Assembly: GCF_000403355.2 (NCBI RefSeq)
Contig: NZ_KE159646.1
Location: 1,516,258 to 1,580,257 of the forward strand
Length of the DNA stretch: 64,000 bases
Direction of reading: 5' to 3'
Source: Adlercreutzia caecimuris B7
GTDB taxonomy: Bacteria; Actinomycetota; Coriobacteriia; Coriobacteriales; Eggerthellaceae
Positions 50,110 to 53,973 of the stretch are shown here, in pieces. Every line of letters starts with the position of its first letter. Within the stretch, counting starts at the first letter, position 1. Below the pieces are notes generated by a model, which was not told where the DNA came from, ran no database searches, and saw only the letters and a program-made list of their open reading frames with translations. The position numbers were made by a program, and so were the translations under genes.

Positions 50110-50200
50110 TCAAGCCCGTATGAGCAGCCCCAAGCAGGAGGCGATCCTCGACACGCAGCTAGCGAGCCGAGCATCAGTCCTCTCAAGTACGTAAGAGCAG
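50110..50200 (+). repeat. Pair of 19-base direct repeats after the HMA gene
   Basis: CTCAAGCCCGTATGAGCAG (50110-50128) and CTCAAGTACGTAAGAGCAG (50182-50200) match at 16 of 19 positions. Both lie in the spacer just before the large structured repeat at 50206. Confidence 0.55.
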
Positions 50201-50205
50201 TCGAC

Positions 50206-50311
50206 GGGCGCGGGGCGTGCCTCCGCGCGCAGTTCCGCAGCGACTGGAACAGCCCAGTGGGCTGTTCCACCAAGCGAGGACTGTCTGAGCACGGAGGTAT
50301 GCCCCGCGCCC
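50206..50311. repeat. Structured repeat, copy A (upstream of metal ATPase)
   Basis: 106 bases with two nested hairpins. The outer stem pairs GGGCGCGGGGC, then TGCCTCC, with GGAGGTATGCCCC and GCGCCC; the inner hairpin is GGAACAGCCC and GGGCTGTTCC. The central 80 bases are almost identical to copy B at 52372-52489. It is not an IS and has no ORF. Confidence 0.8.
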
Positions 50312-50348
50312 GCCGACGGACAGCCAATTAACGGACAAGGACCCCACC

Positions 50349-52346
50349 ATGAGCCCCAAGCAAAAACGCCTCCTCACCCGCATCATCGTCGCCCTCGTCA
50401 TCTTCTTCGCCATCATCATCGTGGAAGAGGCCGGCCTTTTGCATGCCGCCTTCGGCAGCCCCGGCGACGTGTACGCCGAGTTCGCGCTCTTCCTCATCCC
50501 CTACCTCATCGCCGGCTACGACGTCATCGCCAGCGCATTCCGCAACCTCTTCCGCGGTCACGCCCTCGACGAGGACTTCCTCATGACCGTGGCCACCTTC
50601 GGCGCCTTCGCGCTGGTGCTGTTCCCCCACACCGAGCCACACATGGCCGAGGGCGCCGCCGTCATGCTGTTCTTCCAGGTAGGCGAGCTGTTCCAAAGCT
50701 ATGCCGTGGACAAATCGCGGAAATCCATCGCCGATATGATGGACATCGCGCCGGAGTTCGCCAACGTCATGGAAGAGGGGAAACTGAAGCAGGTGGATCC
50801 CTTCGAGCTGGCCCCCGACGACGAGTTCATCGTCATGCCCGGCGAGCGCATCCCGCTGGACGGCATCATCCTCACCGGTGACAGCCAGATCGACACCGCA
50901 GCGCTCACCGGCGAATCGGTGCCCCGCACGGCGCGCCCGGGCGACGAGGTTATCTCCGGCTGCGTGAACCTCACGGGCAAGCTCACGGTACGTGCCACGA
51001 AGCCCTTCGAGGACTCCACCGTGAGCCGCATCCTGGAGCTGGTGGAGAACGCCGCCGAGAAGAAGGCCCGCACCGAGAACTTCATCACGCGCTTCGCCCG
51101 CGTGTACACCCCCATCGTCGTGGGCGTGGCGGCCGCGCTCGCCATCGTGCCCCCGCTGTTGCTCGGCGGCGATTGGGCCGACTGGGTGCTGCGCGGCCTC
51201 ACCTTCCTCGTAGTGTCGTGCCCCTGCGCGCTGGTGATCTCGGTGCCCCTGTCGTTCTTCGGCGGCATCGGGGGCGCCTCGCGCCTCGGCATTCTGGTGA
51301 AGGGGTCGAACTACCTGGAGGCCCTGGGCTCCACGGAAACCGTCGTGTTCGACAAGACCGGTACGCTCACCGACGGCACCTTCGCCGTGACCGAGCTGGC
51401 GTGCGCCCCCGGCGTGACCGAGGCCGAGCTCGTGGCCACCGCCGCCGCGGCCGAGGCCTTCTCTACCCACCCCATCGCCCAATCGGTGCGAGTCTACGGC
51501 GATGCCATGGCGAACGGGGAACGGTCGGGCGGCGACGCCATGGCGAACGGCCAGCGGCCCGCCACCAACGTCGCTCCGCTGGCCGAGCGCGTCCGCGACG
51601 TGCGCGAGGTGAGCGGCCAGGGTGTAGAGGCCGTCGTGGACGGTCGCGGCGTGCTCGTGGGCAACGGCAAGCTCATGGCCGCCCATGGCGTGCCCTTCCA
51701 GGCGACCGATGCCGCCGGCACGGTGCTGTACGTGGCCGCTGACGGGGCCTTCCTCGGCACCATCGTCATCGCCGACACCATCAAGCCCACGGCCGCCCGG
51801 GCCATTGCCGACTTGCACGCGGCCGGCGTGAAGAAGACCGTCATGCTCACCGGCGACCGCACCGATGTGGCCGCCTCGGTCGCCGCCCGGCTCGGTATCG
51901 ACGAGGTGCACGCCGAGCTGCTGCCCCAGGACAAGGTGGCGGAAGTGGAGAAGCTGCTGGCCGCCACCGAGCGCGATACCCGCGGCAAGGGCAAGCTCGC
52001 CTTCGTCGGCGACGGCATCAACGACGCGCCGGTGCTCACCCGTGCCGACATCGGCATCGCCATGGGCGCCATGGGGTCGGATGCCGCCATCGAGGCCGCC
52101 GACATCGTGCTCATGAACGACAACCCCGACGACATCGCGAAGGCCATCGACGTGGCCCGGCGCACCATGCGCATCGTGTGGCAGAACATCATCTTCGCCC
52201 TCGGCATCAAGTTCGCCGTGCTCGTGCTGGCCGCCTTCGGCATCGCGAACATGTGGATGGCTGTGTTCGCCGACGTAGGCGTGGCCGTCATCGCCATCTT
52301 GAACGCCATGCGCGCCATGAACGTGAAGCGCTACGAGAAGCGGTAA
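50349..52346 (+). CDS. Heavy-metal-translocating P1B-type ATPase (CadA/ZntA-like)
   Basis: 665 residues. The metal-site helix has CPCALVIS (about 291), the phosphorylation site DKTGTLTDG (about 336), the hinge GDGINDAPVL (about 556), and TGES in the actuator domain (about 190). There are about eight transmembrane segments and no N-terminal HMA domain, which is supplied by the gene at 49874. ATG at 50349 with AAGGA ahead. The nucleotide-binding domain contains a short tandem duplication, GDAMANGERSG then GDAMANGQRP (about 385-402), absent from typical members. It probably exports Zn, Cd or Pb under the ArsR repressor. Confidence 0.94.
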   Translation: MSPKQKRLLTRIIVALVIFFAIIIVEEAGLLHAAFGSPGDVYAEFALFLIPYLIAGYDVIASAFRNLFRGHALDEDFLMTVATFGAFALVLFPHTEPHMAEGAAVMLFFQVGELFQSYAVDKSRKSIADMMDIAPEFANVMEEGKLKQVDPFELAPDDEFIVMPGERIPLDGIILTGDSQIDTAALTGESVPRTARPGDEVISGCVNLTGKLTVRATKPFEDSTVSRILELVENAAEKKARTENFITRFARVYTPIVVGVAAALAIVPPLLLGGDWADWVLRGLTFLVVSCPCALVISVPLSFFGGIGGASRLGILVKGSNYLEALGSTETVVFDKTGTLTDGTFAVTELACAPGVTEAELVATAAAAEAFSTHPIAQSVRVYGDAMANGERSGGDAMANGQRPATNVAPLAERVRDVREVSGQGVEAVVDGRGVLVGNGKLMAAHGVPFQATDAAGTVLYVAADGAFLGTIVIADTIKPTAARAIADLHAAGVKKTVMLTGDRTDVAASVAARLGIDEVHAELLPQDKVAEVEKLLAATERDTRGKGKLAFVGDGINDAPVLTRADIGIAMGAMGSDAAIEAADIVLMNDNPDDIAKAIDVARRTMRIVWQNIIFALGIKFAVLVLAAFGIANMWMAVFADVGVAVIAILNAMRAMNVKRYEKR

Positions 52347-52371
52347 ACCGTGCCGGCCTCAGGCGCGTGGA

Positions 52372-52489
52372 GGCGTCCCCCGCGGGGCGTGCCTCCACGC
52401 GCAGTTCCGCAGCGACTGGAACAGCCCAGTGGGCTGTTCCACCAAGCGAGGACTGTGTGAGCATGGAGGTATGCCCCGCGGGGGACGCC
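52372..52489. repeat. Structured repeat, copy B (downstream of metal ATPase)
   Basis: 118 bases. The same inner hairpin (GGAACAGCCC / GGGCTGTTCC) and middle stem as copy A, but the outermost stem is GGCGTCCCC paired with GGGGACGCC instead of GGGCGCG with CGCGCCC. Base pairing is therefore kept while sequence differs. Confidence 0.8.
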
Positions 52490-52722
52490 GGGCAACCGGC
52501 ACCTTCTCCGCCCCATTCCCCAAGCGCCCAAATCAGCATTTCGGCAACCGCAAGTTCACAGACTTACCCATAGCCCCCCGAACGCATCTCGGGGGGCTAT
52601 GCTTTTCAGTGCGCAATGGCCCCATCCCTCATGCCGCCCGCGCCGCGCCCGCCGCGCGGATGTCGGCTCCGTCGCGAAGTCGTTGCGCGACACCGTGTTC
52701 CCGACCACTTTGGAGGTTCGTC

Positions 52723-53973
52723 ATGAAAGACGAGAAGGAGACCTTGCGCAAGACCGACGAGAGCATTCACGTAATGGAGGGCTTCGACCCCGCCATCCTC
52801 TCCGATGTGCCCGCACCGGTCGTATCGCTGTATATTCCCGTTCACCACAGCGAGCGCGAGGAGCGCCGCGACATCTGGGATCGCGACATGTTCAAGGATC
52901 TCATGAAAGACGCCGAGCGCACCCTAGCCGAAAGCTACGGCAAGGACGCCTACAAGGGCATCCTGGAGAAGGCCGACTACCTGCTCGCCCATCCCGACAT
53001 GCCACTGTGGCTGCACGCCGGCGAGGGTCTGGGATTCCTCATGGGCAACGACGACGTGTACGTGTACAACCTGTTCTTCGCCCCCGAGCCCATGGTGGCC
53101 GCCGGTGACACCTACTTCGTGAAGCCGCTGCTGCGCAACTTCCAATACGGCACCGAGTACTACATCCTGGAGCTGGGCAACGACCGCTTCAGCTGGGTGA
53201 AGGGCGACCGCACCCATGTGGAGCGCCAGCAGCTGCCGCGCGAGGTGCACGACTTCTTCAGCGAGCTGTTCGCCAACAGCGACGACACCGCCGCCGACAT
53301 GAAGAAGGACGAGCTGGGCGCCCTGGACTATATCACCTTGGAAGGCCACATGGGCCAGTACCACGACCACCAGTCGCGCAACGACGTGAAGAAGGAAGAC
53401 GCCGCCCAGTGGTTCCGCTACGTGAACAAGGCTGTGAACGACTACCTCGTGCGCGACGATACCACGCCCATCATCCTGTGCTGCGACGAGGAGTACGAGC
53501 ACGCCTTCCGCAAGGTCTGCACCCTGCGCCACCTGCTGCCCGAGGGCATCAAGAAGGATCCGGCCGGCCTTGACGGCAAGGCGCTCTTGGAAGAGTCGCT
53601 GGCCGTGATGGACGGCATCCGCGATGCGAACATCAAGGAGACCGCCGAGAAGTTCGGCGCCGATGCGGCCCACGGGAAGGCCTCCGACGACTTCGACGCC
53701 ATCGGCATGGCGCTCGCCGAGCGCCGCGTGGCAGCCCTGTTCATGGTGAAGGGCAAGATTCTGCCCGGCGGCTTCGACGTCAACACCGGCACCGTGACCT
53801 TCGACGGCAACCCAAACCCGGTCGACGACGGCTACATCGACCCGGCCGCGCCCGACATCACCGACGCCTTCGCCCAGGCCGCCCTGGCCCAGGACGCCCA
53901 CATCTACATCGTGGACCAGGATCAGATGCCCACCGCCTCGCCGGTGGCCGCCCTGTTCCGCTACGCGGAGTAG
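52723..53973 (+). CDS. baeRF-family protein (bacterial/archaeal eRF1-like)
   Basis: 416 residues, cytoplasmic. VVSLYIPVHHSEREERRDIWDRDMFKDLMKDA, the middle domain FSWVKGDRTHVERQQLP and the C-terminal AERRVAALFMVKGKILPGGFD and DQMPTASPVAALFRYAE are as in baeRF6/7-type homologues of release factor eRF1. They are thought to act on ribosomes, for example in rescue or hibernation; no activity is assigned here. ATG at 52723 with GGAGG seven bases ahead. It ends before a strong terminator at 54042. Confidence 0.8.
   Translation: MKDEKETLRKTDESIHVMEGFDPAILSDVPAPVVSLYIPVHHSEREERRDIWDRDMFKDLMKDAERTLAESYGKDAYKGILEKADYLLAHPDMPLWLHAGEGLGFLMGNDDVYVYNLFFAPEPMVAAGDTYFVKPLLRNFQYGTEYYILELGNDRFSWVKGDRTHVERQQLPREVHDFFSELFANSDDTAADMKKDELGALDYITLEGHMGQYHDHQSRNDVKKEDAAQWFRYVNKAVNDYLVRDDTTPIILCCDEEYEHAFRKVCTLRHLLPEGIKKDPAGLDGKALLEESLAVMDGIRDANIKETAEKFGADAAHGKASDDFDAIGMALAERRVAALFMVKGKILPGGFDVNTGTVTFDGNPNPVDDGYIDPAAPDITDAFAQAALAQDAHIYIVDQDQMPTASPVAALFRYAE

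Follow-up and report, generated by a model that had tools for sequence, protein, structure and literature searches.

Repeats flanking a heavy-metal ATPase gene

The stretch analysed here, referred to as the window, comprises 64,000 nt of contig NZ_KE159646.1 of Adlercreutzia caecimuris B7 and carries, at positions 50349-52346, a gene for a 665-aa heavy-metal P-type ATPase that is flanked by two copies of a structured repeat in the same orientation. An earlier note on this DNA, made from the sequence alone, had given the positions of the two copies correctly and had put the length of the element at ∼110 nt, against ∼118 nt for each copy by the covariance model. The features of the two copies are as follows.

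50200-50317, + strand: copy 1, with type A arms, located between the gene for a small metal-binding protein and the ATPase start (model R1, 118.8 bits, E 8.6e-26; fold z -9.2)
50200-50224, + strand: 5' outer arm of copy 1, whose partner is 50292-50317; contains the conserved wobble base G50217, paired with T50300
50231-50283, + strand: core of copy 1, AGTTCCGCAGCG - tip hairpin - AGCGAGGACTG, near-invariant columns of the A1 alignment
50245-50269, + strand: tip hairpin of copy 1 (11 bp, loop AGT), covarying among copies
50292-50317, + strand: 3' outer arm of copy 1; the end motif CGGACAG comes next, at 50317-50323
52372-52489, + strand: copy 2, with type A arms, located past the ATPase stop (model R1, 120.3 bits, E 3.7e-26)
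52350-52502, + strand: widest extent of copy 2, with an extra inverted repeat, GTGCCGG / CCGGCAC, beyond the modelled helix
52403-52455, + strand: core of copy 2, near-invariant alignment columns
52417-52441, + strand: tip hairpin of copy 2, covarying among copies

The inner 100 nt of the two copies are 97% identical and include the 11-bp tip hairpin TGGAACAGCCC AGT GGGCTGTTCCA, and the outermost arms are unlike between the copies but paired within each of them, just as the earlier note had described. The calculated fold energies are -93.6 kcal/mol for copy 1 and -104.4 kcal/mol for copy 2 (z -9.2 and -10.2 versus shuffled sequence). The note's statement that the element has no ORF is borne out, the listed ORFs that cross it being merely mechanical. 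Neither copy qualifies as an intrinsic terminator (a GC-rich hairpin with a T run), and the sole terminator-like site nearby, at 52569-52601, lies outside the elements; no promoter-like match was detected near either copy. The gene that follows copy 2 (52723-53973) resembles the ribosome hibernation factor family, although its 83 bits fall short of the curated cut-off for that family (330).

Distribution of the family

The genome of A. caecimuris B7 (2.96 Mb) contains ∼48 copies of the element, which puts aside a local duplication of just two copies, and the outer pairing is conserved in the further copies. All nine genomes of the genus are carriers, with 15 to more than 40 copies each. The covariance model built in this analysis, a step that the earlier note had proposed along with a search by the core, revealed members in 84 of the 149 genomes of Coriobacteriia (42 of the 78 genera). 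Nearly all named matches come from Eggerthellaceae, namely Adlercreutzia, Enterorhabdus, Slackia, Senegalimassilia, and Candidatus Aphodovivens, and a minimal form that lacks the tip hairpin is found in other Eggerthellaceae genera. Beyond Coriobacteriia, the covariance model matched a single genome of the phylum sample (G241), and the exact-core search outside the class found two, G241 and G457. No copy was detected in the viral contigs, plasmids, and phages searched. The family is Coriobacteriia-wide and consists of miniature palindromes on the chromosome, roughly 90-150 nt in length, that carry no genes. No previous description of it was found in the literature search, which was limited to open-licence papers.

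Copies in the A. caecimuris B7 genome also occur in close pairs, five of them within ∼220 bp (four head-to-head and one tandem) versus 0.17 expected. They occur along most of its contig C1, but just two were found in the 1.87-2.7 Mb interval. Copy numbers can vary widely within a genus: in one of them, the 4.0-Mb genome G041 has no model match versus 12 to at least 24 in G079 and G101.

Constant core and covarying helices

In the alignment of 49 diverse copies from which helices and covariation were counted, the elements share a constant plan that consists of a near-invariant core helix, a covarying tip hairpin, and an outer helix of at least 20 bp. The core helix, AGUUCCGC / GCG-A-GGACU, includes a U·G pair and a bulged A, and six of its seven counted pairs never vary. 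Two-sided changes are seen at 7 of the 8 counted pairs of the tip hairpin and at every one of the 21 modelled pairs of the outer helix, 28 pairs in total. The covariation score of 0.667, compared to 0.182 ± 0.010 for shuffles and at most 0.163 with slid partners, strongly supports the earlier claim that structure has been kept across sequence change, and with it the note's reading of selection on structure. Among all copies, each of the four inner-arm subtypes has a G·U wobble at the same register, and farther out there is a recurrent A·G mismatch. The two bases on either side of the tip are linked in every one of 166 copies, as C with A in 108 and as A with G in 58; their physical linkage with the tip could play a part in this pattern.

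At outer positions other than the conserved wobble and mismatch, G·U combinations outnumber A·C ones on one strand by 111 to 20 (11 + 9). Judging by base-pairing rules, this excess suggests that the folded strand acts single-stranded, as RNA or ssDNA, because G·T and A·C should be about equally frequent in a cruciform or in a palindrome of purely mutational origin.

Genomic context

Gene contexts were assigned by means of a home-made gene caller, which recovers the genes of the window, counting only copies with both neighbours nearby. The copies are intergenic and occupy 107 tandem, 21 convergent, and 5 divergent gaps, versus 222, 38, and 42 such ordinary gaps in the same sequences, so that divergent gaps are depleted (p 0.001). 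In tandem gaps, 45 copies are in the sense and 62 in the antisense orientation (p 0.12), i.e., both orientations occur. Because the copies are related to each other, any p-value based on independence is too small. No bias was seen relative to the sign of GC skew, a rough comparison in which ori and ter were only guessed from that skew. The genes next to the copies are varied housekeeping genes that share no common function and include no transposase cluster. This comparison does not support a link to the metal ATPase: an element tied to metal resistance was rejected because the neighbours are unrelated housekeeping genes, and the metal operon is probably affected only incidentally, if at all. 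Some sites recur across genera (the rbfA-infB gap, polA), by a rough count not more often than expected by chance. The rbfA-infB gap carries the element in three genera (L274, L298, L036, L041, L042, and L170), with the reverse orientation in L170, and may represent either a hot spot or an old copy.

Turnover and replaced arms at orthologous sites

The site of copy 2 is empty in three of the sequences compared, G003 (in which the ATPase is ∼98% identical), G008, and L165; the entire 52350-52502 stretch is gone, and in the close relatives G003 and G008 the empty site is short and free of palindromes. The site of copy 1 is occupied in G003, G008, L151, and L165, with different arms, and in the first two of these both arms and tip differ from those of copy 1 but are still paired. 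Further cases of presence and absence include L016/L100, L010/L052, L055/L084, and L031/L012; the other empty sites are also short and not palindromic. Some bare sites represent deletions that retained the left arm (L065 of A. caecimuris B7 versus L037, and L114 versus L012). The empty-site comparisons revealed no target-site duplication, the single case of a direct repeat looking like a deletion. The comparison of L037 with L065 had prompted the idea that the arms are snap-back copies of the target, which was rejected because the bare site at L065 seems to have arisen by deletion between GAGCAG repeats, because an occupied ortholog, L040, exists in genome G006, and because the arms lie inside end motifs.

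At occupied orthologous sites, where the orientation is the same, the arms range from almost unchanged to mostly replaced, and changes that affect both sides of a pair and keep the pairing number 391 versus 158 one-sided changes (the site pairs are not independent). The modules can be replaced separately: the tip has been replaced and the arms kept in L004 versus L033 and L047, and the arms have been replaced and the tip kept in L143 versus L155. In a recent duplicate within one genome (L109/L128), the arms were carried along. The variable arms lie within recurrent end motifs, such as GAGCAG ... CGGACAR.

Comparison with known repeats

Similarly to REP, REPIN, and BIME sequences, the elements are chromosomal intergenic palindromes that are present in tens of copies, fall into subtypes, form inverted pairs, and show compensated stem changes. 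Palindromic units in alternating orientation, as in a BIME-like mosaic, are found here as well, the head-to-head pairs among them. In the REP/RAYT system, the transposase recognises a folded strand, and a stem bulge is important for this step (PMC8266576); the RAYT genes are flanked by REPs (PMC2817692). The present elements differ from REPs in their size (∼118 nt versus 20-40 nt) and in having a long outer helix of free sequence around a fixed core. The conserved alignment columns contain no 5' tag of the GTAG/GTGG type beside the hairpin. No match to RAYT (Y1 transposase, Pfam PF01797) was found in the A. caecimuris B7 genome at E 0.1, nor in most carriers, and no RAYT gene flanked by inverted copies was detected, the neighbours of the copies being housekeeping genes. 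Matches of the IS200 type are limited to four Eggerthellaceae carriers and Propionigenium maris, and only G060 and G061 have Y1 proteins of ∼300 aa. The earlier remark that this is not a typical REP was therefore correct, given the missing RAYT, the absent GTAG tag, and the different size, and mobilisation by a RAYT is ruled out for the A. caecimuris B7 genome, which has none.

In size, absence of genes, dispersal between genes, and presence or absence among relatives, the elements resemble MITEs and ERIC/NEMIS-type repeats, but neither fixed terminal inverted repeats nor target-site duplications were found, and their arms vary from copy to copy. The attC sites of integrons are recombination-site hairpins in which the structure is kept while the sequence varies. 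The element shares this property; however, attC conserves its outer ends, whereas the element conserves its middle and has variable outer arms, and no attC boxes (RYYYAAC/GTTRRRY) were seen in it. Searches of Rfam 15 at the gathering score returned no match for the window, the Propionigenium loci, or nine further loci.

Possible mode of propagation

The reading that we favour, with a probability of about one-half (0.52), is that of a REP/BIME-like miniature element that a trans-acting factor propagates or maintains in the form of a folded single strand. The constant core would be the recognition part, bound by this factor on the folded single strand (ssDNA or a transcript) in the course of copying or exchange of the element, while the outer helix and the tip would merely need to be paired; copies that do not fold would not be propagated, so that pairing would be selected and sequence would not. 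We infer copying or exchange from the presence/absence cases, the close pairs, and the replaced arms. On this analysis, the best explanation would be a mechanism that resembles the REP/BIME system but uses an enzyme other than RAYT. It draws support from the high copy number, the covariation around a near-invariant core, the one-strand excess of G·U with its conserved wobble, the presence/absence differences between close relatives, including copy 2 itself, the close pairs, the replaced arms and tips, the occurrence in both gene orientations with few divergent gaps, and the distribution across the class. Several observations argue against this reading: no mobilising enzyme was found for the family, with RAYT missing from the A. 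caecimuris B7 genome and most carriers; pairing is kept in resident orthologous copies, which would also fit a function in place; the rough GC-skew comparison lacks the sign bias that strand-biased single-strand transposons would show; and no target-site duplications were seen at the empty sites compared, nor any copies in the viral contigs, plasmids, and phages searched.

Some of the same evidence fits a functional structured RNA, in which the folded strand is transcribed, as part of an mRNA or as antisense, and every resident copy is selected in place, for instance, as a protector of mRNA ends, an RNase III substrate, or a protein-binding hairpin. The one-strand tolerance of G·U, the conserved wobble and A·G mismatch, the exception-free C..A / A..G linkage, the pairing kept at orthologous sites, and the avoidance of divergent gaps, which need no crossing transcript, all speak for it. 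This explanation nevertheless appears rather unlikely in view of the mixed orientation relative to genes (45 sense to 62 antisense in tandem gaps, p 0.12), the lack of a promoter-like match near the window copies, neighbours with no common function, individual copies that are missing in close relatives, and the lack of an Rfam match. As DNA binding sites or topological devices, the elements would be double-stranded palindromes to which, after cruciform extrusion, gyrase or a nucleoid protein binds, as with some BIMEs. Such devices would account for the chromosomal, intergenic, orientation-independent, and paired arrangement; they are an improbable solution, as the one-strand asymmetry of G·T and A·C is unexpected if both strands fold alike and the arms offer no common sequence to a double-strand binder.

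Two further explanations were considered. If template switching between the arms during replication kept them complementary, with conversion of segments via the shared core, no selection on the fold would be needed, and the large excess of two-sided over one-sided changes at orthologous sites with flanks more than 90% identical would follow, as would the exchange of tips and arms as units. Such a process would, however, restore Watson-Crick pairs rather than favour G·U over A·C, could not hold the wobble and the A·G mismatch each in one register, and leaves new copies at bare sites unexplained, which makes it quite improbable. The alternative offered in the earlier note was a palindromic element whose insertion sites already contained palindromes. 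The outer arms of such an element would derive from the target, as might be expected from window copies whose inner parts are 97% alike and whose differences are confined to the outermost arms. This suggestion is highly improbable, since the empty sites are palindrome-free, the variable arms sit inside the recurrent end motifs, and the L109/L128 duplicate retains its arms.

A related repeat in Fusobacteriota and implications

The tipless form of the element shares an exact 25-nt minimal core, AGTTCCGCAGCGAAGCGAGGACTGT, with repeats of Propionigenium maris, a member of Fusobacteriota, which has its own ∼180-nt repeat in about 20 copies (e.g., L091:1641-1689(-), L147:2735-2782(-), and L215-L238). 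The likeness extends to a changing yet paired arm of its own (GACC/GGTC, GGCC/GGCC); the P. maris family differs in being AT-rich, in its outer architecture, and in that no covarying tip hairpin was seen. For any one 25-mer, we estimate ∼5e-4 chance matches in the collection of 257 Gb, and the common core suggests a recognising factor that may be ancient or may occur in more than one phylum. It is possible, if on balance doubtful, that these repeats represent a new kind of miniature element, with a near-invariant core helix that is read on the folded single strand by a non-RAYT enzyme, outer and tip helices of free sequence that are swapped as paired modules, a class-wide distribution, and a counterpart in a different phylum.

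For Coriobacteriia, which are common gut bacteria, the analysis provides a widespread structured repeat and a covariance model for its annotation. Selection of the fold and selection of the sequence are separated here unusually cleanly, inside single genomes, and the spread of such elements without a RAYT, or any RNA made by them, becomes directly testable.
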